Below are positions 1-14,740 of a DNA stretch of 27,699 nt, piece after piece. Under the pieces are notes generated by a model. That model did not search any database and was not told the DNA's origin. It worked only from the letters and a program-made list of their open reading frames with translations. The DNA comes from a virus. Positions within the stretch are counted from its first letter, which is position 1. Each line of letters begins with the position of its first letter. A program made the translations under genes and the position numbers. The DNA lies in the IMG/VR virus record IMGVR_UViG_3300009529_000037, positions 1 through 27,699 of that record. One strand, written 5' to 3'.

Positions 1-2066
1 GTGTCGAACGGCTGCGGGTTCATCAAGTATTTCACCAACCACTCGCAGACCATAGAGTTCCATTTCGTGCCGGTCATCAGCATCCGATGCATTTGCGACA
101 CGTCGCCTTCGACCCAAAACCTTTTACCCGGTTCTTTGACCTCGTGATTCTCTGCCAGCCATAATGCATGCTCGGCGATTTTATAATTCAACCAATCTAT
201 CTTCTTCTTGCGCGGCAAAGTATCGAGGTAGTCGGAAGCGGTTTGCGAAATAGGTACGTACAGAAATCTTTGGGCGATGGCCTCGAGGTCCTGGGCGGAC
301 GATACTCCCGAGCTGTCGAGCAGAAAAGCATTGTTAGCGGCGATGATCAACCGAATCGCTCCCTTCAAGTCGCTGGTCGGTTTGTATTTCTGTTTGAGGG
401 TGCGCTGCGTGGTCGTCAGCATCGCCCGCAAAGTTGTCGTGACCGTCTGCCGGCCATATCGCTTCGGCATCTCCTCGTCGGCGAATATCAGAGGACATCT
501 TACGATCTCATCGTTGAAGTCGGACAAGGCCTTTTCGATTTCCGCGGGCCCGCCTTCGCTCCATATCTTCGCGAGGCCGTGAGCGAACATGGTCTTCCCG
601 GTGCCTTTCGGTCCTTCGAAGTAAACCGCGCACAGCAACTTGTCCAAATCGGGCACGCACGAAATCAAATCAATGAGCTTGCTGTACAAGATGCCACCTA
701 ATAAATGAAGCCATTGGTCTATCTCTTTATCGAAAGTCGGAGTCAAGTCCGTCCGTATCGGACTCACGGCCGCGTGAATCGTCTGAGTAGTAGGCTCGTA
801 CGTCGTAAACTGCTTGGTCATGTCGCTGATGACACGACTCGCCAACGACCCGCACTCTCGAACGACGTCGGAGATCGCGCGGTATCGAAATCCGGATTTG
901 GTCAACTCGATAAGCCGCACGGGCGCGGGCGCCAGGATTTTCGACGCGGCCAGAGTCAAGTCGTCTCGCATATACGGCCCGAGGTACTCCCCGGTACCGT
1001 CCAAAAACCAGGCCGACCCGTCGCGCTGTATCACCCAACGATCCTGGAGCTCGGGTGCTTCCCAACCCTGCCGGGTGGCGATGCGTTTGAGGTCGTCGTC
1101 TGCGTAAGGCACGCCGTCGCCGATCTGGTTCTTCTTCAGCTGCTCTTGTTTGTACGCGCGGGACTTCTCGACTGCACCGGCGTACGCGGTCCAAACCTCG
1201 TCGGTTGTCGGTGCGCCAGGAGATACTGACTGCATGATCGTGAGGCTGGGAGAAAAGATTTCAGTCAGGGTGGACTCGAACAGGTCCTCGTTTGCTCGAG
1301 CAAACCACATGGTGAGCTGCAGGACGACTTGATGCCGGTCACCGGGCTCGGCGAACGGTTGTTTGTTGAGAAGTGCGGTCATCGATTTCCTAAGCGGGTC
1401 TTCTTTGCGTATCGCCCGCGCTTTGTTTCGGATGGCGACGAGTTGGTCGGTCTTTGCGAAATCGGTTTCGTCGGCGGATGCTGGCGCGGGGAGCTCGTCA
1501 GGCAGGTCCTCGGGTTCGAGCCACTTGCCGGGATGATGTATAGACTCGGCGACGTTCGAGTCAAAGGTAGACGGCAAAAAGTGCAAGCGTGAGATGTCTT
1601 TGGTGTGAGGATCGTTGACAGAGCCCACAAGGCGATTGAGGGCGTTCCATACGTCGGGGTAGGCAGAGGGGTGTACGGAGTTGAGAAACGGCAGCACGAC
1701 GCGGATACGGGGCCTTCCTCGGGCTGAGGAGGATCTATGCTTGTGGGTGGTGTAGGCGACGTATTCGAATTGCTTGAGACGATCGAGGGTCTCAAGTAAG
1801 TCGGATTCGGGTATTGAATCGATGTCCAGGGCAATGGCGTTGGCGGCAACGACGTTCGATTTCCTACGAGGTCCGTTGACTTCGCCGAGAATGACCGCGG
1901 GGCCGTTCTTGTTCTTCTCGAGCCGGTCTTTTCGTTTGGCATCCGATGGACTCCCTCGCTGCTCGTGCGTGGTGAAAATTTGAACCCATTCACTCCAAGG
2001 GCGCGTAACGGGCCTGGACTCGACATCCTGTGCCGAGGAATAAAGTGTCAACGTGATGTCCCGCAT
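1..2066 (-). CDS. Primase-helicase (AEP primase plus SF3/D5-like ATPase), 3' end outside window
   Basis: Probable replication initiator that makes primers and unwinds phage DNA. Read on the minus strand from an ATG at 2066-2064 preceded by GGGGA, the frame stays open for 688 codons and leaves the window. The N-terminal part resembles archaeo-eukaryotic primases of phages and plasmids: NGPAV near residue 54, the metal-binding ALDID at 79-83, YTTHKH at 105-110, GRPRIRVVLP at 117-126 and SRLHFLP at 159-165. The C-terminal part is a P-loop ATPase with Walker A EGPKGTGKT at 484-492, Walker B PLIFADEE at 525-532 and a sensor-like LIIAANN at 573-579, as in D5/SF3 helicases. It is transcribed away from the rest of the window, so it belongs to a separate leftward replication transcript. 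The C-terminus is not visible. The primase plus helicase call is firm; the exact subfamily is not. Confidence 0.88.
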   Translation of the reverse strand, partial: MRDITLTLYSSAQDVESRPVTRPWSEWVQIFTTHEQRGSPSDAKRKDRLEKNKNGPAVILGEVNGPRRKSNVVAANAIALDIDSIPESDLLETLDRLKQFEYVAYTTHKHRSSSARGRPRIRVVLPFLNSVHPSAYPDVWNALNRLVGSVNDPHTKDISRLHFLPSTFDSNVAESIHHPGKWLEPEDLPDELPAPASADETDFAKTDQLVAIRNKARAIRKEDPLRKSMTALLNKQPFAEPGDRHQVVLQLTMWFARANEDLFESTLTEIFSPSLTIMQSVSPGAPTTDEVWTAYAGAVEKSRAYKQEQLKKNQIGDGVPYADDDLKRIATRQGWEAPELQDRWVIQRDGSAWFLDGTGEYLGPYMRDDLTLAASKILAPAPVRLIELTKSGFRYRAISDVVRECGSLASRVISDMTKQFTTYEPTTQTIHAAVSPIRTDLTPTFDKEIDQWLHLLGGILYSKLIDLISCVPDLDKLLCAVYFEGPKGTGKTMFAHGLAKIWSEGGPAEIEKALSDFNDEIVRCPLIFADEEMPKRYGRQTVTTTLRAMLTTTQRTLKQKYKPTSDLKGAIRLIIAANNAFLLDSSGVSSAQDLEAIAQRFLYVPISQTASDYLDTLPRKKKIDWLNYKIAEHALWLAENHEVKEPGKRFWVEGDVSQMHRMLMTGTKWNSMVCEWLVKYLMNPQPFD

Positions 2067-2099
2067 TTTCCCCGCTTGTCAATCTTGTCATTGAGGGTT

Positions 2100-2174
2100 C
2101 CCCGGCAATTGACTGATATGATGCAATATTTTCAAGACGAGGAGACTTGAAAGACGGTCAGTCAATCGCCGGGG
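2100..2174. repeat. Inverted repeat, 17-bp arms, upstream of primase
   Basis: The left arm CCCCGGCAATTGACTGA (2100-2116) is matched by the right arm TCAGTCAATCGCCGGGG (2158-2174) as an inverted repeat with one mismatch. The arms are separated by 41 bases. They lie 34 bases upstream of the primase start codon. The spacing is long for a single dimeric operator and for a terminator hairpin, and no T-run follows. Paired protein-binding sites or an origin structure are more likely. Confidence 0.6.
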
Positions 2175-2240
2175 GTTTACCCAAAAACTGTATGTGTTGG
2201 AAATTTCTCGTCTTTTGCATCATGGGATCATCCTATCAGC

Positions 2241-2273
2241 TTCCAATGGGCAAGTCAAGCTCTTTCCAATGGG
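2241..2273 (+). repeat. Short direct repeat TTCCAATGGG
   Basis: The 10-mer TTCCAATGGG occurs at 2241-2250 and again at 2264-2273, 23 bases apart, about two helical turns. It directly precedes the TGTGAC-type repeat cluster. Its function is unknown; two same-face protein-binding sites are possible. Confidence 0.4.
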
Positions 2274-2517
2274 GTGTCACACGTCACAGCATATATACTC
2301 CGTATCTTCTTCTTAGGGCGATCAATTAGAATTTTTCCCACAATGACACGTAAAGCGATGGAATATAGGTGTTTATTTCCTACCTCCCTCGCGCGTACTA
2401 GTAAGAAAGTAAGGGTGTGACAGTGTGACGATCATATTTAAATCGTCGCAATTATTAAGCAATCGATGTCACCGAAAGCGTCACAAAAGCGTCACATAAT
2501 AAATAATAGGTGTGACG
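2274..2517. repeat. Cluster of TGTGAC/GTCACA repeats (iteron- or operator-like)
   Basis: The core GTCAC, or its complement GTGAC, recurs across about 245 bases: GTGTCACACGTCACA at 2274-2288, GTGTGACAGTGTGACG at 2415-2430 (two copies 8 bases apart), GTCAC at 2468-2472, two abutting 11-bp copies of AAAGCGTCACA at 2475-2485 and 2486-2496, and GTGTGACG at 2510-2517. A related TGACAC lies at 2344-2349. The last copy sits just upstream of the predicted promoter at 2531. Multiple short repeats in both orientations are typical of replication-initiator iterons or of clustered repressor operators. The adjacent ribbon-helix-helix-like gene is a natural candidate ligand, but that is inference. Confidence 0.6.
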
Positions 2518-2530
2518 TTCCCCATAATTC

Positions 2531-2558
2531 TTGACATTTTTTCGCAAATACTTATTAA
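2531..2558 (+). promoter_or_regulatory. Predicted sigma70-like promoter for the modification cassette
   Basis: A perfect -35 hexamer TTGACA (2531-2536) is followed after 16 bases by TATTAA (2553-2558), a 4/6 match to the -10 consensus. Transcription would begin at about 2565, only a few bases before the ATG at 2568, giving a leaderless or nearly leaderless message. The site follows a TGTGACG repeat, so regulation by a protein bound there is plausible. Confidence 0.5.
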
Positions 2559-2567
2559 CTTATTCAC

Positions 2568-2732
2568 ATGAGGCTCAAAAAACCAAAGGTATTTTCGTTC
2601 TGGTTGGACCAACGGCATATCGATTTTCTGGAATTGTTCAAAGATTTCCATAATCTATCGTCGAGAGGAGCCGCGTTGCGTGCCATCATCGATATTGTAT
2701 CCAAACTATTTCAAAAAGGAGAAACACAATGA
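2568..2732 (+). CDS. Small ribbon-helix-helix-like protein, probable regulator (54 aa)
   Basis: The 54-codon frame begins ATGAGGCTC and ends in the TGA that overlaps the next gene's ATG (ATGA at 2729-2732). The protein has a short N-terminal strand-like segment KVFSFWLD (7-14), a helix around QRHIDFLELFKDF (15-27), and a second helix starting at SSRGAALRAIIDIV (31-44). That order and length match MetJ/Arc-type DNA-binding proteins, though no family was identified with certainty. No Shine-Dalgarno precedes the start, consistent with leaderless translation from the promoter just upstream. Its position as first gene of the cassette, next to the TGTGAC repeats, suggests an autoregulator. It could also be a spurious small frame, but the exact overlap with the next gene argues against that. 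Confidence 0.6.
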   Translation: MRLKKPKVFSFWLDQRHIDFLELFKDFHNLSSRGAALRAIIDIVSKLFQKGETQ

Positions 2733-3352
2733 CCAATGTCAATTGCTCATATACTAAAATGGTACCAATAGATCAATTGAAAGAAAATCCAGTCAACCCG
2801 AATACCCATCCGTTCAGGCAAATAGAAATATTGGCCAAAATCATCAAAGAGCTGGGGTGGAGAGCCCCCATCACCGTCTCGAACCAGTCGGGATTCATCG
2901 TCCGCGGGCACGGCCGGCTCGAAGCTGCAAAAATGCTCAACCTCACCGAGGTCCCCATCGACTTCCAGGACTACCCAAACGAAACCGCAGAGCTCGCAGA
3001 CCTGGTCGCCGATAACCGAGTGTCAGATCTGTCCGTGTGGTCCGAGGCCGACCTCCTGCCCATCCTCAACGAGCTGTCCGAGTCGGGAGTCGAAATAGAA
3101 AACCTGGGATGGAAGGAAGAAGAGCTCGAAGCCATGCTCGCGCAAATGGATACCGAATCGCCTCCCGAAGACCCAGGCCAACCAGAACAACCAGACGATC
3201 GATTCGTGCGATTCCAGTTCGGAGATTATCGAGGCCTGGTCGCTCGCGAAGTCTATGAAAAGTTCGTGAACCATTATAAACGCATCCAGCTCGATACCGG
3301 GCAGCCGATGCTCACCGACATACTCAAGGAGTTATTCCATGGGGATCGTTGA
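2729..3352 (+). CDS. ParB/Srx-fold N-terminal domain protein
   Basis: A 207-residue protein with a ParB-like N-terminal domain: the region starting PVNPNTHP (21-28), the strongly conserved VRGHGRLEAA (58-67) and the following ADNR (94-97). In phages this domain is often encoded beside, or fused to, DNA methyltransferases, where it is thought to guide or support DNA modification rather than partition. The acidic, proline-rich linker around 131-146 is followed by a short C-terminal domain of unknown role. The start is set by AAGGAG at 2716-2721, seven bases before ATG, and overlaps the upstream stop. The C-terminus overlaps the methyltransferase start by 14 bases, implying translational coupling. 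No catalytic residues specific to a nuclease could be confirmed. Confidence 0.85.
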   Translation: MTNVNCSYTKMVPIDQLKENPVNPNTHPFRQIEILAKIIKELGWRAPITVSNQSGFIVRGHGRLEAAKMLNLTEVPIDFQDYPNETAELADLVADNRVSDLSVWSEADLLPILNELSESGVEIENLGWKEEELEAMLAQMDTESPPEDPGQPEQPDDRFVRFQFGDYRGLVAREVYEKFVNHYKRIQLDTGQPMLTDILKELFHGDR

Positions 3353-4346
3353 TTCGCTCAAACAGTCGGCCGTCAACAAGAAGGCCATGCTCAAAAGGTT
3401 CGGGTTCATACCGTATTCCATCCTGAAGATGTCCAGAGGCCCTCTATCCAAAAAGGTATTCACCCTGCAACATGAATATCCAGAGCGAGGTACAGTCTCA
3501 ACCGGGTTCGGGGATGTCGTTACCGACAAGGCCAAAGAATCTCTCGAAGTAAGAAAGCAAAAAGGGCTTCTCGGAGGAGTCATATCGAAACGAGCGGAAG
3601 GTGTCGCACTTCGGCAGCAACGAGAAGAACGAAACAAAGCCCCGCAAGACGAAGGCGGGAAGATGTTCGTGCCGCAATACGATGGAGGTGCCCCGGTCCG
3701 AATGAATGCTACAGTCATGCCGGCCGAGCTCGTCGAGTTCTTCATCAAGTACTACTCATCCCCAGGCCAGGTGTACCTCGATCCGTTCATGGGGCAAGGT
3801 ATCCAAATGCAAGTGGCCAAAATGTACGGCCTCGACTACTATGGGTACGACATCTCGGAAGAGTTCTTCAACTATATCAAATCGACCAAAGACAAAATCG
3901 ACGACGGCGCCACCGTCATCCAAACAACCCTCGGGGACTCTCGATACCCGACCGAAATACCCGACGACATCGGCGACTTCTCGTTCCACTCCCCGCCCTA
4001 TTGGGACATCGAGTACTATGGCGATGAGCCGGAGCAACTCGGTCGAGGAACCTACGAAGAGTTCCTCGAATCGATGTCTCAAGTCTATAAAAGCTGGTTG
4101 CCGAAATTCAAACCGGGTGCCTACCATATCGCCAATGTCAACGACTTCCGAAGAAAAGGAACCTATTATTCATACCACGCCGACACCATCCAGCTTTTCA
4201 AAGACGCAGGATGGGAGTTGTACGATACCTGGATAATCGATGGGCTCGTCGGGGGGTTGCCGAAAGGATTCGCCGTCTCTTTCAACCTCAAAAAAATAGC
4301 ACCCAAAGTCCACGAGTATGCTCTCGTGTTCAGGAAACCAGAATGA
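3339..4346 (+). CDS. DNA methyltransferase-like enzyme (SPPY motif)
   Basis: A 335-residue AdoMet-dependent DNA base amino-methyltransferase homologue. The AdoMet-binding motif I appears as YLDPFMGQG (146-154), followed by GYDISEEF (169-176) and the catalytic motif IV SPPYW (218-222). The order is motif I before motif IV. SPPY is most common in N4-cytosine enzymes but also occurs in others, so the target base is uncertain. The first 110 residues, including RFGFIPYSIL (20-29) and SRGPLSKK (32-39), form an extra N-terminal module of a type found in phage methyltransferases beside ParB genes. The start is backed by AAGGAG at 3326-3331. The gene overlaps both neighbours, the downstream GNAT gene by ATGA. 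No partner restriction endonuclease is present, so this is a lone modification enzyme, probably protecting or marking phage DNA. Because an AdoMet decarboxylase follows, its cofactor may not be ordinary AdoMet (inference). Confidence 0.87.
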   Translation: MGIVDSLKQSAVNKKAMLKRFGFIPYSILKMSRGPLSKKVFTLQHEYPERGTVSTGFGDVVTDKAKESLEVRKQKGLLGGVISKRAEGVALRQQREERNKAPQDEGGKMFVPQYDGGAPVRMNATVMPAELVEFFIKYYSSPGQVYLDPFMGQGIQMQVAKMYGLDYYGYDISEEFFNYIKSTKDKIDDGATVIQTTLGDSRYPTEIPDDIGDFSFHSPPYWDIEYYGDEPEQLGRGTYEEFLESMSQVYKSWLPKFKPGAYHIANVNDFRRKGTYYSYHADTIQLFKDAGWELYDTWIIDGLVGGLPKGFAVSFNLKKIAPKVHEYALVFRKPE

Positions 4347-4777
4347 AATATGCCACCATCGAAGACCTCGATGCCATAATGGACATCGTGAAAAAATACC
4401 GAAAAACAGTTTTTCCCTATTTTCGAGAGGACAAATTAAAAGAAAAAATACAGCGATCGGAAGTCATGCTCGATAAACAAACGTTTATCATTTTCGGTAC
4501 ATATCGAAAACGAACTTGGTTGGGTGAGGTATGTGCTCATAAAGGAGATATGGCAATCCACGAAATTGGCACTGAGGAACAAGGTTCTGGTTGTGCGCAC
4601 GATGTCTTGGCCGAGTTCATCGACAATTTTTCTGGAAAAAAGATATGGTTGACTGTGCGCAAAGAAAACGAGCGAGCAGTTCGATTCTATATAAAACACG
4701 AATTTGAAATAGTGGGAGGTATTCTGTGGTCGGATGGAAAGTTGCCGGGTTGCGTAATGATGAGGAGTCCAAAATGA
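4343..4777 (+). CDS. GNAT-family N-acetyltransferase
   Basis: A 144-residue GNAT-fold acyltransferase. The acetyl-CoA pyrophosphate-binding loop is visible as EEQGSGCA (78-85), followed by helix HDVLAEFID. The later motif TVRKENERAVRFYIKHEF (104-121) matches the conserved N-x-x-A-x-x-F/Y-Y segment of motif B. I chose the ATG at 4343 because it overlaps the methyltransferase stop as ATGA; a longer in-frame reading would lie wholly inside the methyltransferase. The acceptor cannot be read from sequence. Context between a DNA methyltransferase and an AdoMet decarboxylase suggests an amine acceptor: either a polyamine or an amino group placed on DNA. Phage Mu Mom, a DNA-modifying enzyme, also has a GNAT-type fold, which is a precedent for the fold acting on DNA, but this protein shows no clear Mom resemblance. 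Confidence 0.83.
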   Translation: MKYATIEDLDAIMDIVKKYRKTVFPYFREDKLKEKIQRSEVMLDKQTFIIFGTYRKRTWLGEVCAHKGDMAIHEIGTEEQGSGCAHDVLAEFIDNFSGKKIWLTVRKENERAVRFYIKHEFEIVGGILWSDGKLPGCVMMRSPK

Positions 4778-5118: not shown

Positions 5119-5733
5119 ATGGGTAACTATCGTAAAAAATTTGTGGCTGTGAACGACCGAAAGGAACACGAGCGCCAGCCAGGCGAACCCGATAGAGCTT
5201 GGAAAGGATTCACTATTTACCGAGACATCGGTTTTACTCGAACGCTTTTGAAAGCGGCAATCGAGTACCGCAAAATAGTCGGTGTCACGGAAAGTAAAGA
5301 GAAATCTACTCATCGGAACTTCCAAAATTGGTCTATCAGATGGGGTTGGGTGCGTCGATGCGAAAGCTGGGATCGCGAGGTCGATAAGCAGCGACGGAGA
5401 ATAGCTCTTGAAGAAGTGAAGAGGATGCGGGATCGGCATGTGCAATTGAGTATGTCGATGCAGCAAGTAGGGGCGACAGAGCTTAATAAATTATTGAAAG
5501 ATGTGAAGGCAAAAGCCGAAGAAGGGCTTTTGGGTGCGACGGACATCCGATACCTGATTGAAACGGGAATGAAGTTAGAGCGCATGAGTCGCGGTGAGCC
5601 TGATTCGATAACAGAGGAACGAAAAGAAATTTCGGGAGATGCTGCACGCGAGGAGTTGAGGGCGTTGTTCGAGGACAAGGAGTCGCGTGATAATCTGCGA
5701 GAACTTGCAAAGAAATTAGTCGAAAAAGAATGA
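5119..5733 (+). CDS. Terminase small subunit (probable)
   Basis: A 204-residue, highly charged, helical protein immediately upstream of the large terminase and overlapping it by ATGA. The segment FQNWSIRWGWVRRCESWD (about residues 69-86) matches the tryptophan- and arginine-rich pattern common in small terminase or phage DNA-recognition proteins, where an N-terminal helix-turn-helix binds packaging sites. The following 100 residues look like a coiled-coil oligomerization region. The protein would recognise phage DNA and deliver it to the large subunit. Position and composition support the role; no single diagnostic catalytic motif exists for this family. Confidence 0.75.
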   Translation: MGNYRKKFVAVNDRKEHERQPGEPDRAWKGFTIYRDIGFTRTLLKAAIEYRKIVGVTESKEKSTHRNFQNWSIRWGWVRRCESWDREVDKQRRRIALEEVKRMRDRHVQLSMSMQQVGATELNKLLKDVKAKAEEGLLGATDIRYLIETGMKLERMSRGEPDSITEERKEISGDAAREELRALFEDKESRDNLRELAKKLVEKE

Positions 5734-7154
5734 ACGAGTTAGCGCACGCCGACCGCGAGATATTAATCGAAGAGAATGTTTGGCGGTCGGGGCTTGCGTC
5801 TTATGCGGTTTACGCTTCGCATTGGCGGCAAAAATGGAAACCTTATAAGTTCCTCATCAAACTCGCTGACGCAATCGAAGACGCTGTCCACACTCCTAAC
5901 TCCCGTCTGATAATCAACGCCCCGCCCCGACACGGCAAGAGCCAGCTCGTGTCGCACTGGTTGCCGGTTTGGTATCTCGATTGGTTCCCGGAAAAACGGA
6001 TCATCTTGGGTGCATATGGTGATTCACTCGCACGCGATTGGGGGCGAATTGTACGTGACGAGTTTTTGATGAATGAGAAGTGTTGGACAGCTCTTCGACG
6101 CGATACCCAGGCGGTTGACGACTGGAGAACGACACGCGATGGGGGAATGAGGACGGCCGGTGTCGGGGGGCCCATCGTAGGCAAAGGCGCCGACCTCATT
6201 ATCATCGACGACCCGCACAAGTCGTGGGAGGATGCGATGTCGCCGACGTCGCGTCAGCGTCTAATCGATTGGTTCAACGGCACTCTTTATCACCGTGCTG
6301 AGCCTGGCGCTTCTATCATCATGATTATGACTCGATGGCATGAGGACGACTTGACCGGGTATTTTCTTGACCGGCATGCGGACGATTGGCAGTCGGTCAG
6401 TATGCCTGCCTTGGCTGATGGGGATGACGACATACTCGGGCGTGAAGAGGGCGAGCCGTTGTGTGAGGAGAGATTCGATGCAGAGCGACTTGGAAAGATA
6501 AAATTGGCGATGGGTTCGCACATGTTCGCAGGTCTATATCAGCAGCGCCCGAGCCCTCTTGCAGGCGGTATGATAAAGCGCGAATGGTTTCAGCGATACA
6601 GCGAGATTCCGGAAAACCTTGAGGAATACATTCAATCATGGGATTTGACTTTCAAGGCTACCGGCCGCAGCTATGTCGTCGGGCAAGTATGGGGTCGGAA
6701 GGGCTCTAACTGTTATTTGATGCCCGATCAAACGCGCGAGCGCATGGGATTCCCTGAACAGCTTCGAGCGATTCGTATGATGTCGAGTCGATGGAAGCAG
6801 ACGACCGATATATTGATAGAGGATGCGGCCGACGGACCGGCTGCGGTTGCGACTTTAAAAGATGAAATATCGGGCATACTTCCGAAACCGCCTAGAGGTA
6901 GCAAAGAGGCGCGACTCGCTGCGGTGTCGGGTATGATCGAAGCAGGTAACGTACATCTGCCTGATGCATCGCTCGCACCTTGGATTGACGACTTTATCGA
7001 AGAGGTGGTAGTGTTCCCCAACGCGGTTAACGACGATCAGGTGGATGCGATGACAATGGCACTCAACCATCTTCGGCAAAACACATACAACGTGGATATA
7101 GCTTTACCGGACACGGGCGTGCGCTCAAGTCCTTGGGAGTTTGCACATGTCTAA
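5730..7154 (+). CDS. Terminase large subunit (packaging ATPase-nuclease)
   Basis: A 474-residue packaging motor. The ATPase half has Walker A APPRHGKS (64-71) and Walker B LIIIDDP (156-162), with the coupling-type segment MTRWHEDDL near 200-208. The RNase H-like nuclease half has acidic residues in SWDLTF (D305), ILIEDAADG (361-369) and NDDQVDAM (434-441). Length and motif order are complete and typical. It cuts concatemeric DNA and pumps it through the portal. It overlaps the small terminase by ATGA at the 5' end and the portal gene by 8 bases at the 3' end. Confidence 0.96.
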   Translation: MNELAHADREILIEENVWRSGLASYAVYASHWRQKWKPYKFLIKLADAIEDAVHTPNSRLIINAPPRHGKSQLVSHWLPVWYLDWFPEKRIILGAYGDSLARDWGRIVRDEFLMNEKCWTALRRDTQAVDDWRTTRDGGMRTAGVGGPIVGKGADLIIIDDPHKSWEDAMSPTSRQRLIDWFNGTLYHRAEPGASIIMIMTRWHEDDLTGYFLDRHADDWQSVSMPALADGDDDILGREEGEPLCEERFDAERLGKIKLAMGSHMFAGLYQQRPSPLAGGMIKREWFQRYSEIPENLEEYIQSWDLTFKATGRSYVVGQVWGRKGSNCYLMPDQTRERMGFPEQLRAIRMMSSRWKQTTDILIEDAADGPAAVATLKDEISGILPKPPRGSKEARLAAVSGMIEAGNVHLPDASLAPWIDDFIEEVVVFPNAVNDDQVDAMTMALNHLRQNTYNVDIALPDTGVRSSPWEFAHV

Positions 7155-8589
7155 AATAGACTTCGGTGTAATCGGGTTCTCAGGTCTCAAAGAATACGGC
7201 GGATATATCGATGAAGAGTGGCACCCCAAACTTCGAGGTTATTACGGGCCGAAGTTGTATCGAGAAATGGGCGACAACAGCTCGGCAATCGGTGCTATCA
7301 AGTACATCATTCAAGCTCTCGTGCGGCAAGTCGAGTGGAGGGTTGAGCCCGCAGACGATTCGAAAGAAGCGCAAGAACAAGCAGAGTTTCTTGAAACGTG
7401 CGTAATCGATATGTCGATAACCTGGGAGGATTTCATCTCCGAGGTATTGAGTTTCCTTGAATATGGTTGGTCCTATTTTGAAATCATTTACAAGTTGCGT
7501 AAAGGGTTGGACACAAAAAACCCGAGGACACGCAGCCAGTTCGACGACGGCAAAATCGGTTGGAGGAAGCTGGCACTCCGGGCCCAGGATACTCTTGAGC
7601 GTTGGCAGTTTGACGAGGACGACAACGGCCTTCGCGGCATGCATCAATCGAGCGAGTACACAGGCAAAGCGGCGTTCATCCCTATCGAGAAGGCTTTGCT
7701 GTTTCGGACGGTGACTCGCAAAGACAATCCCGAAGGGCGCAGCATCTATCGTAACGCGGTCGTCGATTATTTCTATCTCAAGCGAATCAGCGAGATCGAG
7801 GCCATCGGCATCGAGCGCGATATGACCGGCTTGCTGACCATGGAAGTTCCTTTGCAGTTGCTTCATCCTGACGCTGATGCCAAGTCGGTCAGCCTTCGAT
7901 CGGCTTTCGAAAAGATGCTGTCCGAGTTGAAACGAGACGAGCGCGAATATGCTTTGGTTCCTCCTGAAATAGACAAAGACGGAAAGCCGACCGGATACAA
8001 ACTCAAACTTCTGAGTTCAGGCGGTCGTCGACAGATAGATACAAACGCGGTGAAGCTGTATTACAAGGTCGGCATCCTTCAATCAGTGCTCGCGCAGTTC
8101 ATCCAGCTCGGCATGAGCGGGGTCGGGTCGTTTGCTCTTGCATCGACTCAAACCGATATGTTCGCGGTGGCTCTCGGGTCGTACCTGAACACGATAGCGT
8201 CGGTCATCAATCGCTTCGGCGTATCGCGCTTGATGGCGGTCAACAGCGTAAAGCAAGATTTGTGGCCCGAGCTGGTTCACGGTGACATCGAGAGCCCGCC
8301 TCTTGCGGAGATAGGTGCATACGTGCAAGCGCTTGCTTCATCGGGTCAGTTGCCTGAAGATGAGGCCATACAACGCAAGCTTTTAGAGATCGCCAATCTG
8401 CCGATGCCCGAGAAAGAAGAAGGAGAGAAGGCAGAGAAACAGAAAAAGTCTAAAGGCGGGTTTGTACGAAAAGTAATACCTGGTCTTCACCTCGTACAAC
8501 CTTCTGGAAAATGCCCGTATTGCGGCAAGCCGGTACGAGGTAAACCAGAGCGATGTCCTCATTGCGATAGGTCATTAGTGGCAGCATGA
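7147..8589 (+). CDS. Portal protein, Mu gp29/DUF935-like, with C-terminal zinc ribbon
   Basis: A 480-residue portal that forms the DNA channel at the head vertex. Recognisable stretches are the N-terminal GPKLYREMGDNSSAIGAI, the ITWEDFISEVLSFLEYGWSYFEI region and the central RISEIEAIGIERDMTG, all in the pattern of DUF935 portals. I start it at ATG 7147 (GGGAG seven bases upstream) rather than the TTG at 7141. The tail is unusual: CPYC at 456-459 and CPHC at 470-473, separated by 10 residues rich in Lys, Arg, Gly and Pro, make a typical zinc ribbon that Mu-type portals do not normally carry. It follows a Lys/Glu-rich linker (about 423-436). The ribbon might contact DNA, the terminase or a head protein. 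Confidence 0.9.
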   Translation: MSKIDFGVIGFSGLKEYGGYIDEEWHPKLRGYYGPKLYREMGDNSSAIGAIKYIIQALVRQVEWRVEPADDSKEAQEQAEFLETCVIDMSITWEDFISEVLSFLEYGWSYFEIIYKLRKGLDTKNPRTRSQFDDGKIGWRKLALRAQDTLERWQFDEDDNGLRGMHQSSEYTGKAAFIPIEKALLFRTVTRKDNPEGRSIYRNAVVDYFYLKRISEIEAIGIERDMTGLLTMEVPLQLLHPDADAKSVSLRSAFEKMLSELKRDEREYALVPPEIDKDGKPTGYKLKLLSSGGRRQIDTNAVKLYYKVGILQSVLAQFIQLGMSGVGSFALASTQTDMFAVALGSYLNTIASVINRFGVSRLMAVNSVKQDLWPELVHGDIESPPLAEIGAYVQALASSGQLPEDEAIQRKLLEIANLPMPEKEEGEKAEKQKKSKGGFVRKVIPGLHLVQPSGKCPYCGKPVRGKPERCPHCDRSLVAA

Positions 8590-10394
8590 CTTTCGTTCAG
8601 TACTACAAACACGAGCGCATATTAAAAGCTCGACGTAAAAGAAAACCAGAATGGCAGAAGCGTCTGCCTCATGATACTCCGGCCGGTCGCGAGGCATACG
8701 CGATAGCGGCGAAGCACGAGAACAAATTCGCGCGCGCGTTTTTAGAAGCGACACAATCGCTTCTCACCAACAGAATAGCGGCGGATTTTAACGCGGTATG
8801 GCGAGCGGGCGGCGGGCCTGAGAAAGTCATGGCGACGTTGCCTTTCTTCGGCACGGACATCAAACCGGAAGTGTGGGACGATTTCATCGAGCGCATATTG
8901 AAAGCATATTCAGCAGTGATTCAAGAAGCAGGCGAAGAAAACACTGAGGAGATGAATCGCAAATTCCGAACGAACATGAAGTTCTCGCTCGAAGATAAAG
9001 AAGAAATTCCAGTCGTGCCTATCAACCCATACTCGATAGAATGGGTTCGCAATCGTTCATTAGAACTTGCGAAGCAAGGCATCTCCGACCAGCAACGCGA
9101 GGTAGTGCGCGACATCATTGATCGCGGGTTTTCTGAAGGCGTGCGTGCTGAAGAAGCATACGGCGCGATAAAGAAAAATATTGGTTTGACTCATCGCGAA
9201 TACAACGCAGTTATCAACCGCGAAATAATGCTCGAAGAAGCGGGATGGGCCGATGCCGACGTGAAACACCTGACTGAGAAATATCGTGATGAGCTTTTAG
9301 GAAAACGAGCGATGCGCATTGCGCGAACCGAAACGATGTTTGCTCAAGCACAAGGGCGGAATGCCAGTTGGCAGATGGCGCAAGATTCGGGCATTTTGCC
9401 TCCCGTCGTGCGCGAGTGGGTAGCAGTGCCAGGCGCGTGCGAAATATGTGGAGAGCTTGATGGACAGGAAGCACCGGTGGGCGGGGCGTATGAGAGCACT
9501 GAGGGTCCGGTTGAGTCTCCCCCCGCTCATCCGAACTGTTTACCGGGGGACGCGGCAGTATTGGCCTCGGGAGTTTCGGCCTCGAGTAAACGTTGGTACG
9601 ATGGAGATTTGGTCATCTTGACTACTGCCCTGGGCAACAAGCTCGCCTGCACCCCGAATCATCCTATACTCACAATGAGTGGGTGGAAAGCTGCGCATTT
9701 GCTTAACGTAGGAGATGACGTAATCAGTTACATCGGAGGAGAGAGCGTGCCCTCTTCTTGGTTCGGACATAATCAAAAGAACATGCCAGTCGTTCGAGAT
9801 AAGATATCGAATCTTGCGAAGAAGCTGGGTTTGACGTCGTCCGTACCAGTGCCAGGAACCTCCAAGGATTTCCACGGCGACGGGAACGATGCCGATGTCA
9901 CAATTATACGGACCAAGAGCTTGTTGTGGTCGAACTTCAAGTCCTCGTTGTTCAAGCATTTTGGCAAACTCAAGTTCTTCAGTCGTCGCATGAGTGAGAT
10001 GCTTTTCGCATGTAAACGCTCTTTTAAGTTTCTCTTCATGAGTTCGCGGCTTGCCTCGAACGGCATCATGAGCAGCCTTTGCTCTTTGCAGCCGTTCGCT
10101 TTTGCTCAGGCTTTGCATGTAGATTCTACCGGCTTCGCTTTGCCCTCGAATGCAAATTCCTTTGATTTTGAGAAGTCGCCGAATAACATTCCGGCTGACG
10201 CCCCAGATTTTAGCCAACGACTTCTCGCTAGTTCCAGCGATATAGTCGCCGACAATGTCATCAATGTGGATGTCCAAAGATTTTCTGGCCATGTGTATAA
10301 CCTCCAATGTTTGTCTGGTTACTATATATCACAAAACATAATTAGCCACAACTGCGCGTGTACTGAAATCTTGAAAAGAGCGAAAGGGCGATGA
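8586..10394 (+). CDS. Mu gpF-like head morphogenesis protein containing an intein
   Basis: The 602-codon frame encodes a minor head protein of the Mu gpF/SPP1 gp7 family, needed in early head assembly and found beside the portal. Typical parts are RAMRIARTETMFAQAQGRNA, CEICGELDGQEAPVGG and PPAHPN. The family's C-terminal HPNCxC motif is split: HPN ends at residue 317, a 272-residue intein occupies 318-589, and CACTEILKRAKGR follows. After splicing the protein would be 330 residues, a normal length, with HPNCAC restored. The gene overlaps the portal stop (ATGA). The frame is uninterrupted through the intein, so splicing happens at the protein level. Confidence 0.92.
   Translation: MTFVQYYKHERILKARRKRKPEWQKRLPHDTPAGREAYAIAAKHENKFARAFLEATQSLLTNRIAADFNAVWRAGGGPEKVMATLPFFGTDIKPEVWDDFIERILKAYSAVIQEAGEENTEEMNRKFRTNMKFSLEDKEEIPVVPINPYSIEWVRNRSLELAKQGISDQQREVVRDIIDRGFSEGVRAEEAYGAIKKNIGLTHREYNAVINREIMLEEAGWADADVKHLTEKYRDELLGKRAMRIARTETMFAQAQGRNASWQMAQDSGILPPVVREWVAVPGACEICGELDGQEAPVGGAYESTEGPVESPPAHPNCLPGDAAVLASGVSASSKRWYDGDLVILTTALGNKLACTPNHPILTMSGWKAAHLLNVGDDVISYIGGESVPSSWFGHNQKNMPVVRDKISNLAKKLGLTSSVPVPGTSKDFHGDGNDADVTIIRTKSLLWSNFKSSLFKHFGKLKFFSRRMSEMLFACKRSFKFLFMSSRLASNGIMSSLCSLQPFAFAQALHVDSTGFALPSNANSFDFEKSPNNIPADAPDFSQRLLASSSDIVADNVINVDVQRFSGHVYNLQCLSGYYISQNIISHNCACTEILKRAKGR
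9540..10292 (-). CDS. Antisense Vsr-like (EDxHD) homing endonuclease nested in the intein
   Basis: A 250-residue protein encoded on the strand opposite the intein. ATG 10292-10290 is preceded by GGAGG (complement of 10301-10305), eight bases away, so the longer TTG start at 10307 is not needed. Residues about 24-44 (KSLAKIWGVSRNVIRRLLKIK) form a helix-turn-helix. Residues 105-180 follow the Vsr-like fold: TEELEFAKMLEQRGLEV, then CDIGIVPVAVEILGGSWHW with Asp132, Glu141 and His148 as likely catalytic residues, then RKIRYLISNDWHVLLI. This matches the EDxHD homing endonucleases first noted in introns and fractured intein genes of phages. It would cut intein-free copies of the head gene and drive spread of the intein. 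Its stop codon (TTA on the plus strand, 9540-9542) abuts intein Cys1, and its codons lie in exact register with the sense codons. Confidence 0.85.
   Translation of the reverse strand: MARKSLDIHIDDIVGDYIAGTSEKSLAKIWGVSRNVIRRLLKIKGICIRGQSEAGRIYMQSLSKSERLQRAKAAHDAVRGKPRTHEEKLKRAFTCEKHLTHATTEELEFAKMLEQRGLEVRPQQALGPYNCDIGIVPVAVEILGGSWHWYGRRQTQLLRKIRYLISNDWHVLLIMSEPRRGHALSSDVTDYVISYVKQMRSFPPTHCEYRMIRGAGELVAQGSSQDDQISIVPTFTRGRNSRGQYCRVPR
10323..10351 (-). promoter_or_regulatory. Candidate antisense promoter for the nested endonuclease
   Basis: On the minus strand TTGTGG (plus 10351-10346) is followed after 17 bases by TATATA (plus 10328-10323), preceded by TGA so that it forms an extended -10 (TGnTATA). 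Transcription would start near 10316, about 24 bases before the endonuclease ATG, leaving room for the GGAGG site. The promoter lies in the codons of the intein's last block, so the whole expression unit is inside the intein. The -35 match is weak. Confidence 0.4.
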
Positions 10395-10397
10395 CCA

Positions 10398-12404
10398 ATG
10401 CCTGAGTTCACACGAGAATTTTTAGAAGAAGTATATCGATTAGCAAAGAAGACATTGCCGGGCTGGGCGTATGCGACACTGCGCGCGCAGGCCAGGGCGG
10501 TATCGGGCGGGCGTGCAGCGCACCGAACGGATATTCCTAATGTGTTCGAGAAGGTATCGTTAGGAGTATTGAATTCCGAATCGATGAAGGACTTGTCCGA
10601 TGTTGAGGTGAAGGCCATTTGGGATCGATTGAACCAGTGGCACGCCAACGCCTTGAAGAAGAAAGGGCCGACCGATGTCCTTGTAACTGCTGCTCGTTCG
10701 GTGTTCGACATCATCCAAGATCGGAATATCAAATTCAAATCAAGCCCTTTGTGTGACCTGTTAGAGACTCCTGACAACATACCTGACGTAAAGAAATTGG
10801 TAGCATTTCTACCGATGACGGGTCCGGACGGGGCGTCGATAGCTTTTGTCGGTGCTTCTCCAAGCAAAATAGAGATCGCTCGGAATGAACCGTATGTTGG
10901 GCCGATTCGCAAGACATTCGAATCCAAATACCTGGTTCCTCTCGAGGTGGCTCGTGATGAAGTGATATTGGGGTATGCATGCCCTGAAGCATTCGCCGGA
11001 GAAAAAGGAAAAGTTAGAGAGCCGACCGATGAAGAGATAGCGATTTGGAAAGATTGGCTGTTCGACGAGCTCGACAAGGCGAGACCTCAAATTGTTATTG
11101 CTCTGGGACAGACCGCGCGCAAAGCGTTAGGCGATCGTGCTGATTTTGTCATGCCTCACCCATCTGCGGTAGACCGATTCGGAGATTCGGGAGAAGTCGC
11201 ACGCAAGATTAAACGCATCAAAGAGGCTTTATCCGATATTGAGAAGGCCGACCTCGGTGCAAAATGGTTCGAGATTTTTCCGAAAAGCGGCAAAGGTAAG
11301 TTCTCGTATCAGCATCATTGGCGAGGGCTCAGCGAAGATGAGACAAAATTATCTGATAAAGAATTGCTTGCTACAGATCATTCTTTACACGGGGACTTGA
11401 GGTTGGGCGGGGACAAAGGTCTTTGGGGTTGGACGATATTCCTGGGGGAGACAAAAGAGAATCGTGGGAAGGATGGCGATAAATTCATTTCGATGAAGCC
11501 TGGTGGCAGTTTGCGAGTTACGCCGAAGACGATTCATCCAGAAGAATGGCTTCGGGTCGGGTCGCAATTGGCTGGTCAAATAAACAAACCAGGAGAGCCG
11601 GGTTCGGGTCCTGAATCGCATTCAAAATTCTTTGTAGAGGATTCTGGGACGTACGAATTGGGAGTGGCGACAGAGCACTCTATTGAAATTTTCCTTGACG
11701 GCAAGCATTTAAATGGTAAATATTTGTTAATATATCCTCGATTAGGCGGGGAGCGAGTTTGGCTGATTGACAAGCCGAAATCTCAAACGCCGCGAGCCGA
11801 GGAAGAAAAACTCGCTGATGTCATAAGCGAGCAGCGCAAGAAGGGGCGGCAATATGTCGTCTGGGCAAAGCCGGGAATGAAACCGGTTTTATACAACACG
11901 CGCTCTGGCGAAGTGGTCAAAGGCGAAATGATTCCCATCTCGAAAGCAGATCCCCTCAAAAAGATTGTCTACGGCATTGTTGCCGATCCCTATGGCGTCC
12001 GAGGTGCCCAGGCCGATGCACATGATGACTGGATGATGCCATCCACTGTCGAAGGCATGGCGCACGATTACATCGGAAAAGACATGGTGATCGGGTTTCA
12101 ACACAATAAAAAAGCTGATGCTTGTCCCGTAGAAAGTTGGGTCGAACAGTATCCCAGCCCAGAGGATTATCTCAAGGCGATGAAGGGTGAACCGCATAAA
12201 GTCTATCGACGTAAATTCGGAGATGACGTGATTCATTCAGGTTCATGGGGTCTTGGTGTTCGACTCGGCGAAAAAGAGTGGGGTGCTTACGAGAAAGGCG
12301 AAATCAATGCGTTCAGCCCGGGCGGGCTGGGTCTTCGCACGCCTATCACTCCATCTCAAATGCCGAAGGTCGAGTTCATCGATCTTGTACCGAAAGGAAT
12401 CTAA
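10398..12404 (+). CDS. Fusion protein: UDG-like domain, LigD phosphoesterase-like domain, XkdF-like prohead protease
   Basis: A 668-residue multidomain head gene. Residues about 133-278 resemble family 4/5 uracil-DNA glycosylases: IAFVGASPSK (148-157), EPYVGP (164-169), RPQIVIALG (229-237) and MPHPSA (252-257). The cysteines that hold the iron-sulfur cluster in family 4 are not evident. Residues about 300-460 resemble the 3'-phosphoesterase domain of LigD: FSYQHHW (302-308), DHSLHGDLRL (327-336) and VWLIDKP. Residues about 517-650 match the XkdF/S78_2 putative phage serine protease: IVYGIVADPYG (523-533), QADAHDDWM (538-546), VIGFQHN (564-570) and INAFSPGGLG (636-645). The protease would mature the prohead. 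The two DNA-repair-like domains in a capsid gene are unusual. N-terminal residues 1-130 are helical and unassigned. Confidence 0.78.
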   Translation: MPEFTREFLEEVYRLAKKTLPGWAYATLRAQARAVSGGRAAHRTDIPNVFEKVSLGVLNSESMKDLSDVEVKAIWDRLNQWHANALKKKGPTDVLVTAARSVFDIIQDRNIKFKSSPLCDLLETPDNIPDVKKLVAFLPMTGPDGASIAFVGASPSKIEIARNEPYVGPIRKTFESKYLVPLEVARDEVILGYACPEAFAGEKGKVREPTDEEIAIWKDWLFDELDKARPQIVIALGQTARKALGDRADFVMPHPSAVDRFGDSGEVARKIKRIKEALSDIEKADLGAKWFEIFPKSGKGKFSYQHHWRGLSEDETKLSDKELLATDHSLHGDLRLGGDKGLWGWTIFLGETKENRGKDGDKFISMKPGGSLRVTPKTIHPEEWLRVGSQLAGQINKPGEPGSGPESHSKFFVEDSGTYELGVATEHSIEIFLDGKHLNGKYLLIYPRLGGERVWLIDKPKSQTPRAEEEKLADVISEQRKKGRQYVVWAKPGMKPVLYNTRSGEVVKGEMIPISKADPLKKIVYGIVADPYGVRGAQADAHDDWMMPSTVEGMAHDYIGKDMVIGFQHNKKADACPVESWVEQYPSPEDYLKAMKGEPHKVYRRKFGDDVIHSGSWGLGVRLGEKEWGAYEKGEINAFSPGGLGLRTPITPSQMPKVEFIDLVPKGI

Positions 12405-13366
12405 TGGGACGCGAAGGATTAGACGCCATGACCCGGTTGGATGCGAGCGAAGTGAGTTTGGTTAGACGTGGGGCCAATAAAAAGAAGAGGTTCCCAATTT
12501 TCAAATCGGAGGAGGAGGATATGTCCGATAATCAAGAAGTCTTGAAGGCTGTCCTTGAAACCGAAATCGATGGTGAAGAGACTCTAAAGGAGTACTTCGA
12601 AAAAGCCAAAGTTTCGGACAAAGGTATTGCCGCGGTCAAAGGCGCGCTCCGAATTTTGTCGTCGTTCAAGGATGAGATGCCCGGCGACATCATGGGCAAG
12701 CTGGCGGCAATCGCGGGATACAAACAGGAGAAGCAAGAAGAAGAGCCTCCCATGTATCCCGAGCCGAAAGACAAGAAAAAAATCAAGAAGTGGCTCGACG
12801 AAATGCCAGAAGATCTGCGAAAGCAGTTCGAGCTGAAAGAAGAGTCAGAGGAGGAGCCAGTGAAAAAAGAAGATCTGCCCGAAGAGGTTCAGAAGGCGAT
12901 GGAGGACCAGGATAAGAAACTGGCCGACATGCAAGCCGAGAACGAGAAGATCAACAAGGCTCTGGAAGCGGAGAAAGACAAGCGCGAGCTGGAAGAGTGG
13001 ACAGCGAAGGCGAGAACCGACCTGGGCCACTTCCCTGGCAAATCCGCAGAGGAGCTCGGCCAGATGCTCAAAGACCTGAACGATGCCAATCCAGAAGTGG
13101 CAAAGACTCAGTTCGACAGCATGAAAGCCGCAAGCGAAGCCATGAAATCATCTGAACTCCTGACCGAAGCCGGAGTCATCGCCAAGTCGGGTCTGTCGGG
13201 TTCGACATGGGAGAAGGTGAACAAGATGGCGGACAACCTGGTCGAGAAATCGGAAGACCTCGGCATGACCAAAGAGAAGGCGATTACCAAGGTATTGGAC
13301 AATCGGCCTGACCTTTACGAAAAATACCTCGAGGAGCATCCTCGCCAGGTAGCACCATCGGTGTAA
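12404..13366 (+). CDS. Scaffold-like acidic coiled-coil protein
   Basis: A 320-residue, strongly charged helical protein between the protease and the capsid genes, where scaffolding proteins normally lie. A long heptad-like stretch covers about 156-200 (EDLPEEVQKAM to KDKRELEEW). The start ATG overlaps the upstream stop (TAATG), with AAAGGA ahead. Residues 11-25, RLDASEVSLVRRGAN, match a short sequence usually found at the C-terminal edge of XkdF-type proteases, suggesting the gene boundary has shifted relative to related phages. A second in-frame ATG at 12521, behind a very strong purine run, could yield a 281-residue form. The scaffold role is inferred from composition and location. Confidence 0.7.
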   Translation: MGREGLDAMTRLDASEVSLVRRGANKKKRFPIFKSEEEDMSDNQEVLKAVLETEIDGEETLKEYFEKAKVSDKGIAAVKGALRILSSFKDEMPGDIMGKLAAIAGYKQEKQEEEPPMYPEPKDKKKIKKWLDEMPEDLRKQFELKEESEEEPVKKEDLPEEVQKAMEDQDKKLADMQAENEKINKALEAEKDKRELEEWTAKARTDLGHFPGKSAEELGQMLKDLNDANPEVAKTQFDSMKAASEAMKSSELLTEAGVIAKSGLSGSTWEKVNKMADNLVEKSEDLGMTKEKAITKVLDNRPDLYEKYLEEHPRQVAPSV

Positions 13367-13376
13367 GGAGGGAGTC

Positions 13377-13769
13377 ATGGCATACGAAGGCAATCTCGAA
13401 TGCATCCCTGGGCTAGTCGCGTCAGGTGACTTGGAGAGTGACCAGTTCAAGTTCATGGTCATCGACAGCAATGGGGAAGTCGCAAAGAACACAACCGGTG
13501 GCGCGTTTATCGCAGGGGTACTTCAAAACAAACCGAGCGCTCAAGGCCAGGCCGCGAGCGTTGCGTACGATGGCGTTTCCAAAGTCGTCGCCGGGTCGTC
13601 CGTGTCGAAGGGTGATCCAGTCAGAAGCGATGTCGATGGGAGAGCCGTGGTTAATGCGGGTGCGGCAGCTCCTGGTTATTTCACTCGTGGAATAGCGTTG
13701 GAGAGTGGCGCTCAAGACAATCTCATTTCGGTGCAGTTATCCCCCACGGGCTATCTGCACAACGCATAA
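13377..13769 (+). CDS. Capsid decoration-like protein (DUF2190-type)
   Basis: A 130-residue beta-rich protein directly upstream of the major capsid gene. The pattern MVIDSNGEVAKNTTGGAFIAGVLQN, followed by VVAGSSVSKGDPVRSDVDGRAV, fits head decoration proteins of the DUF2190 type, which have alternating short strands and glycines. A strong GGAGGG lies six bases before ATG. It likely binds the outside of the mature shell. Confidence 0.72.
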   Translation: MAYEGNLECIPGLVASGDLESDQFKFMVIDSNGEVAKNTTGGAFIAGVLQNKPSAQGQAASVAYDGVSKVVAGSSVSKGDPVRSDVDGRAVVNAGAAAPGYFTRGIALESGAQDNLISVQLSPTGYLHNA

Positions 13770-13780
13770 GGAGGTGAGCG

Positions 13781-14740
13781 ATGCCTCAGCCAGTACCCAG
13801 TGACGTACATGTCAACGCACCGCTGACCAACATCAGCATTGCGTACATGCAAGACCAGAACGACTTTGTCGCTGACAAAATGTTTCCGAACGTTCCTGTC
13901 CGCAAGCAAAGCGATTTGTACTACAAATACGAACGGGACAATTGGTTCCGTTCCGAAGCAAAGCTGAGAGCGCCGGGAACCGAGTCGGCCGGAAGTGGTT
14001 TCGAGATCACTACCGATTCATACAGCGCGCTCGTGCAAGCGCTCCACAAGGATGTCGATGACCAGCTCAGAGCGAATCAAGATGCTCCTCTGAACATGGA
14101 CCGCGATGCGGCCGAGTTCGTCACGAGAGGCCTCCTGCTCCGCAAAGAGAAAGACTGGGCGGCAAAGTACTTCATCGCGAGTCTTTGGACCGGTTCGGAT
14201 ACGGGAAGCGATATCACCCCAGCCGCTCTGTGGGACACGACTTCGACTCCCATCACTGACATTCGCGAGCAGATCGCATCGGTGCACAAAAAGACCGGCA
14301 TGCGTCCCAACAAGCTTCTGCTTGCCGAGGATGTATGGGTCAAGCTTCAGGACAACGATGACTTCCTCGATCGCATCGCGATCACTCAGAGGAAGATCGT
14401 GACTAAGGAGCTGCTCGCAGCGGTGTTGGACATCGATGAAGTGCTGGTCGCCAGCGCCATCGAGAACACGGCCAAAGAGGGAGCGACTCTGTCGATGAAT
14501 TGGATTTACTCCAAGAACGCGCTGCTCGTGTATGCGGCTCCGCGTCCGAGTATCATGCAACCTTCGGCGGGTTACACGTTCTCCTGGACCGGGCATCTCG
14601 GAGCGAGCGATCGCGGTCTGCGAACGAAGAGGTTCCGCATGGAGCATCTCGCGAGCGACAGGATCGAAGGAGAGATGGCATATGACCAGAAGGTCGTGGC
14701 CGAGGACCTCGGGGTCTTCTTCAAGGATGTCATCTCATAA
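13781..14740 (+). CDS. Major capsid protein
   Basis: A 319-residue protein with the features of a HK97-fold capsid subunit of the kind found in Mu-like and related phages. It begins with NISIAYMQDQNDFVADKMFP, typical of this family, continues with AAEFVTRGLLLRKEKDWAAKYF in the spine-helix region, and has the conserved KKTGMRPNKLLLAEDVW and VLVASAIENTAKEG segments. A strong GGAGGTGAG ribosome site precedes ATG. There is no long cleavable N-terminal delta domain, which fits the separate scaffold gene upstream. Confidence 0.9.
   Translation: MPQPVPSDVHVNAPLTNISIAYMQDQNDFVADKMFPNVPVRKQSDLYYKYERDNWFRSEAKLRAPGTESAGSGFEITTDSYSALVQALHKDVDDQLRANQDAPLNMDRDAAEFVTRGLLLRKEKDWAAKYFIASLWTGSDTGSDITPAALWDTTSTPITDIREQIASVHKKTGMRPNKLLLAEDVWVKLQDNDDFLDRIAITQRKIVTKELLAAVLDIDEVLVASAIENTAKEGATLSMNWIYSKNALLVYAAPRPSIMQPSAGYTFSWTGHLGASDRGLRTKRFRMEHLASDRIEGEMAYDQKVVAEDLGVFFKDVIS

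Follow-up and report, generated by a model that had tools for sequence, protein, structure and literature searches.

A uracil-DNA glycosylase-like domain, a LigD-type 3'-phosphoesterase-like domain and a prohead protease joined in one head gene of uncultured phages

A single gene in the head operon of a virus joins a uracil-DNA glycosylase (UDG)-like domain and a LigD-type 3'-phosphoesterase-like (PE) domain to an XkdF prohead protease. The gene lies in a 27,699-nucleotide stretch of DNA, IMG/VR record IMGVR_UViG_3300009529_000037, the whole of which is referred to here as the window. Its product is a shortened member of a large, apparently undescribed protein family of uncultured phages. Longer members of the family have a DNA ligase as well, and this suggests that a DNA-repair kit is built into the phage head and perhaps injected with the genome.

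Domains, active-site residues and domain borders

The initial annotation had read this gene as a combination of UDG-like, LigD-type PE-like and XkdF domains, and we confirm all three. When the window protein is used as a single sequence, the Pfam models for UDG (PF03167, residues 141-261, E 1.1e-12) and XkdF (PF14550, residues 514-643, E 2.2e-11) both pass the Pfam cut-off. We count XkdF as an assemblin-like peptidase. LigD_N (PF13298, residues 330-445) reaches an E value of 0.06, which is under the cut-off, and the PE assignment is therefore weak from the single sequence; the profile of its relatives makes it firm. Compared with the PDB, a 12-member PE profile matches 3p43 (1.3e-9) and 3p4h (3.3e-7), as well as 5dmp, 3n9b and 2lj6, and besides these five LigD-PE-type chains none is found at E < 0.01, the next chain standing at 0.08. 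The corresponding profile of 15 UDG domains matches the solved uracil-DNA glycosylase 4zbx (2.4e-17) and UdgX (about 1e-14), and among NCBIfam models the window domain is nearest to UdgX and family 4, with scores far under their cut-offs. An assembly chimera is ruled out as the source of the fusion because dozens of other contigs show the same succession of domains within the same succession of genes. Judged from sequence, the fusion is real.

Table 1. Features of the fusion gene and its surroundings in the window
Feature	Position	Strand	Remarks
ParB-like gene, N6/N4 DNA methyltransferase gene, weak GNAT match	2729-4777	+	before terminase; ParB-like E 1e-4, under cut-off
Large terminase	5730-7154	+	upstream head gene
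Portal	7141-8589	+	upstream head gene
MuF with intein	8586-10394	+	upstream head gene
MuF intein	9537-10352	+	272 aa
Antisense ORF	9540-10307	-	255 aa, spanning nearly the whole intein; weak restriction-endonuclease-like match PF18741, E 0.003
Whole fusion gene	10398-12404	+	668 aa: N-terminal domain, UDG-like, PE-like, XkdF protease
N-terminal domain	10398-10793	+	residues 1-132; family-conserved, without Pfam match
UDG-superfamily domain	10794-11252	+	residues 133-285; Pfam E 1.1e-12, family alignment
UDG motif A, GASPS	10851-10865	+
GYACP	10971-10985	+	relatives' Asn lost
UDG motif B, PHPSA	11154-11168	+
Candidate cleavage site EK/ADLG (SDIEK/ADLG)	11241-11258	+	UDG-PE border; putative
LigD-type PE-like domain	11253-11897	+	residues 286-500; profile match to LigD-PE structures
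PE His in QHHWRG	11310-11327	+
PE His in HGDLRL	11388-11405	+
PE His in HPEEWL	11535-11552	+
XkdF (Peptidase_S78_2) prohead protease domain	11922-12401	+	Pfam E 2.2e-11, alignment
Candidate cleavage site ISK/ADP (PISK/ADP)	11937-11954	+	PE-protease border; putative, may be first protease strand
Presumed catalytic His in GFQH	12093-12110	+
Presumed catalytic Ser in AFSPGG	12309-12326	+
TAATG	12402-12406	+	fusion stop overlapping next gene's start
Next gene, presumed scaffold	12404-13366	+	N-terminus EVSLVRRGAN (12449-12478), then PIFKSEEED
Cement protein	13377-13769	+	downstream head gene
Presumed major capsid protein	13781-14740	+	by position, without Pfam match

Family-4 UDGs carry a GE(A/G)PG motif A, and UdgX, whose hallmarks are GEQPG at motif A and a KRRIH loop with a cross-linking His, holds uracil through Asn91 and His178 while Glu52 activates the nucleophile (PMC10359453). 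These enzymes are the nearest solved relatives of the phage domain, and they share with it the motif-B His, which is found in 29 of 31 aligned sequences including that of the window. In contrast to them, the phage domain lacks the motif-A Glu, the Fe-S cysteines and the KRRIH loop. The Glu position is occupied by Ala in 24 of the 31 sequences, Ser in four, Asp in two, Gly in one and Glu in none, giving a family motif of GASPG in place of GEAPG, which in the window reads GASPS. The base-holding Asn is present in 25 of 31, and Tyr stands at that position in the window. The earlier remark that the domain has no obvious iron-sulfur cysteine set proved correct, as it contains one Cys in the window and zero to three in the other aligned relatives. 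The window domain thus has neither of the two family-4 features, the motif-A Glu and the four 4Fe-4S cysteines, and a UdgX-type covalent trap is ruled out by GASPS and KVREPT, with no GEQPG and no KRRIH loop. Because it has no Fe-S cysteines, belongs to a family with GASPG for GEAPG and has lost the Asn, the window domain may only read bases; a base reader or an enzyme of altered specificity is possible. The suggestion of a non-catalytic binding domain is accordingly plausible for the window, given the family-wide absence of the motif-A Glu and the local loss of the Asn. The domain does not resemble a decaying remnant, since it is up to 60% identical to its relatives and the same is true of the PE domain beside it.

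In LigD, the PE domain binds metal through His42, His48 and Asp50 and phosphate through Arg52, His84 and Tyr88 (PMC8656161). All three metal ligands are present in the window, and among 54 sequences compared the first His is kept in 52 and the second His and the Asp in every one. The equivalent of Arg52 is likewise found in 54 of 54, window included. At the His84-like position 46 of the 54 have Gln, where the window has His; at the Tyr88-like position 53 have Trp, window included. The retained His, His, Asp and Arg, taken with the changed His84 and Tyr88 positions, point to a metal site that probably functions next to a modified phosphate pocket.

The His (GxxH) and Ser (FSxGG) of the protease, which we take to be catalytic from prohead proteases in general, are kept in nearly all members of the alignment. 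Candidate release sites are concentrated at the borders between domains. The pattern [ILVF]xK[AS][DE] occurs six times in 20,537 residues of domain core, seven times in 1,622 residues of the UDG-PE border and 30 times in 1,178 residues of the PE-protease border (30 of 39 sequences). The two border enrichments have P values of 1e-5 and 1e-32, for a motif that was picked post hoc and by a calculation that ignores relatedness; at the PE-protease border the motif may instead belong to a strand of the protease. In the same family, altered motifs, such as one with Lys changed to Arg, show no comparable border excess. HK97 protease likewise cleaves after Lys, and we regard [ILVF]xK/[AS][DE] as a border-enriched candidate cleavage motif.

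A family of head-operon fusions in uncultured phages

Searching IMG/VR with only the window protein as query gave no matches. The motif pattern HxDLRLx5LxGWT detected 28 loci in IMG/VR, and a search with an alignment of four PE domains detected 52, a few of them on contigs from the pattern scan. The order of N-terminal domain, optional insert, UDG, PE and XkdF is seen again in many loci. Among 41 members, which were chosen by their PE domain, Pfam detects XkdF in 40, UDG in 30, an ATP-dependent DNA ligase in 29, Methyltransf_11 in 15 and LigD_N in nine, and a 2H phosphoesterase, a D12 methyltransferase and a metallo-beta-lactamase in two each. A simple pattern search finds a nucleotidyltransferase-like GS...DxD pattern in 23 of 40 relatives, an assignment that is weak because Pfam backs a nucleotidyltransferase in one member only. 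The ligase-bearing insert is absent from the window protein and from those of L036, L055 and L071; these four short forms measure 668-729 aa, and the window fusion carries neither ligase nor nucleotidyltransferase. Some other PE-containing phage proteins are long: one matches radical-SAM and pyrimidine-dimer-glycosylase models (L003, 2456-7687), one has a metallo-beta-lactamase and two PE domains (L061, 3429-5966), one a metallo-beta-lactamase (L047, 1806-6020) and one a 2H phosphoesterase (L062, 1470-6164). Against isolated phages, tblastn with the whole window protein matches the protease end only, the PE domain of L018 matches only ANMV-1, and the UDG domain of L060 matches other phage UDGs and DNA polymerases.

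With the window's neighbours as queries, a shared gene order of terminase, portal, MuF, fusion, scaffold, cement and capsid is found. Of about 50 loci, 27 show the portal, 30 MuF, 37 the scaffold, 35 the cement protein and 29 the capsid gene, counts that are limited by contig ends. A scan of genome contigs gave one match only, to a contig listed as part of a Bacillota MAG, and this contig has the same head operon.

The gene that follows the fusion (12404-13366) has EVSLVRRGANKKKRFPIFKSEEED in its N-terminal part. EVSLVxxGAN, a motif expected near the end of such proteases, lies at the start of the next ORF in most loci; a strict pattern places an EVSLV-type motif there in 37 of 44 loci and inspection by eye adds four, for 41 of 44. 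In the cultured phages HJ05, RcTiptonus and RHph_I4 the following ORF likewise carries a motif of this kind, and in Lactococcus phage 28201 the protease ORF itself has it, at the N-terminus. The recurrence of the split before EVSLV in 41 of 44 loci and in cultured phages excludes a sequencing-error frameshift that divided the protease, and since those cultured phages share the split, the idea that it is peculiar to the fusion was dropped. By analogy with HK97-type proteases, the scaffold may contribute this motif to the protease as a strand.

The MuF intein immediately upstream is spanned by an antisense ORF. Its protein has matches in 130 isolated-phage records, of which 123 cover 80% or more of the protein, and where checked these run antisense to the head gene. 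When close pairs drawn from five of these phages are compared, most mismatches fall at third codon positions of the antisense frame (one comparison gives 9, 3 and 22 at positions 1, 2 and 3), an excess that suggests the antisense ORF is a real gene. We consider it a candidate homing endonuclease gene inside the intein.

Proposed packaging of repair enzymes and competing readings

On balance we lean, by a modest degree, towards the fusion being a head polyprotein whose nucleic-acid enzymes would be packaged, released by the protease and put to healing the ends and lesions of phage DNA. The C-terminal XkdF would bring the fusion into the prohead alongside the scaffold. During maturation, the protease would cut sites of the Lys/Ala-Asp type at the domain borders and leave the nucleic-acid enzymes free inside the capsid, and the freed enzymes could then work on phage DNA ends and lesions, either during packaging or once they have been injected along with the genome. 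Across the full family the cargo would amount to an end-healing and sealing kit of nucleotidyltransferase-like, ATP-dependent ligase, UDG-like and 3'-phosphoesterase parts; that of the window would be a reduced kit of UDG-like and 3'-phosphoesterase domains, the former perhaps reading bases and not excising them. The initial annotation had proposed packaging and liberation by the protease, which fits the head-gene slot, the kept protease residues and the border motif, and it is from these that we infer both steps. A broader claim would be that widespread uncultured tailed phages carry a kit for excision, end healing and ligation on the head protease, which is cut in the capsid, injected and repairs the genome before expression. 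This is more tentative, and we rate it below an even chance.

Alternatively, the repair-like domains could be assembly or packaging factors of the prohead that bind ends or nicks near the portal, aid packaging or trigger the protease, and are then removed without being delivered. The constant slot between the MuF and scaffold genes is in keeping with such a role, and a UDG that lacks the customary catalytic Glu might bind DNA and leave it uncut. However, the enzyme residues are conserved, and the domains ahead of the protease differ greatly between members (ligase, methyltransferases, metallo-beta-lactamase, 2H) although the neighbouring genes stay constant. Such variation in front of an unvarying protease is more in keeping with a cargo than with a structural part, and we regard an assembly role as fairly unlikely. 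To a different possibility, that the domains are packaged counter-defence effectors reversing nicks, 3'-phosphates and base changes made by the host in phage DNA, we give less weight still and consider it improbable. Polyvalent proteins have been proposed to act in host conflict (PMC5512222) and nicking would be reversed by end healing and ligation, but such a function overlaps general repair and the present results do not separate the two.

A further notion, raised earlier as a link to the modification cassette, is that modified phage DNA is recognised by the UDG and PE domains and that these are tied to the window's own DNA-modification genes. The ParB-like gene, the N6/N4 methyltransferase and the weak GNAT match before the terminase speak for it. 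However, no link between the fusion and these genes was found, and what relatives most often add is a ligase and not a modification reader, leaving the proposed link to the modification cassette unsupported. The DNA ligase present in most relatives makes repair or end sealing likelier than modified-DNA recognition, which we consider very improbable.

Should the cargo be packaged and then set free, as the favoured polyprotein reading holds, these phages would bring their own DNA repair into the cell, resembling a viral LigD or base-excision kit, and this would change the view of early genome survival and of resistance to DNA-nicking defences. On this reading, virions should contain the repair parts as separate fragments that terminate at the Lys/Ala-Asp sites. 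The family also points to an unusual UDG subfamily, marked by GASPG, and to a natural enzyme cargo that a protease may release.

Relation to LigD, ANMV-1 and other head-peptidase fusions

The phage proteins share the PE metal ligands of bacterial LigD, and the phage relatives also pair PE with an ATP-dependent ligase; they differ from LigD in being joined to a head protease, in showing no primase-type polymerase domain and, in most relatives, in the residues of the phosphate pocket (PMC8656161). A similar arrangement is found in the archaeal virus ANMV-1 (KP703175), where AJP62006.1 combines a ligase, a PE-like domain and a nucleotidyltransferase-like motif in one protein and follows directly on the portal gene. 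Unlike the phage family, no XkdF or UDG is detected in AJP62006.1, and Met occupies its Arg52-like position. Pfam identifies the product of the ANMV-1 gene at 1913-3193 (L088), which is annotated as 'MutT-like phage hydrolase', as a portal protein (PF06381, E 3e-22).

In the open-access literature we found no description of a UDG, LigD-PE or ligase domain on XkdF. A single-enzyme parallel is that of Nudix domains fused to a capsid-processing serine peptidase, which are proposed to be packaged (PMC9503650). Both cases place a nucleotide-active domain on a head peptidase; the enzyme is different, and the passages on the Nudix fusions describe no DNA end-healing set. The closest general precedent is the polyvalent proteins with a C-terminal assemblin-like peptidase, which are predicted to be packaged in the head (Iyer et al. 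2017, PMC5512222). As far as searched, the set of UDG, LigD-PE and ligase is new relative to that text, in which the word 'glycosylase' does not occur and the few mentions of ligase include none of a ligase fused to a head peptidase. The plan of the fusion is nevertheless the same as theirs, a multidomain protein in which unrelated effector domains are combined with a C-terminal assemblin-like peptidase.
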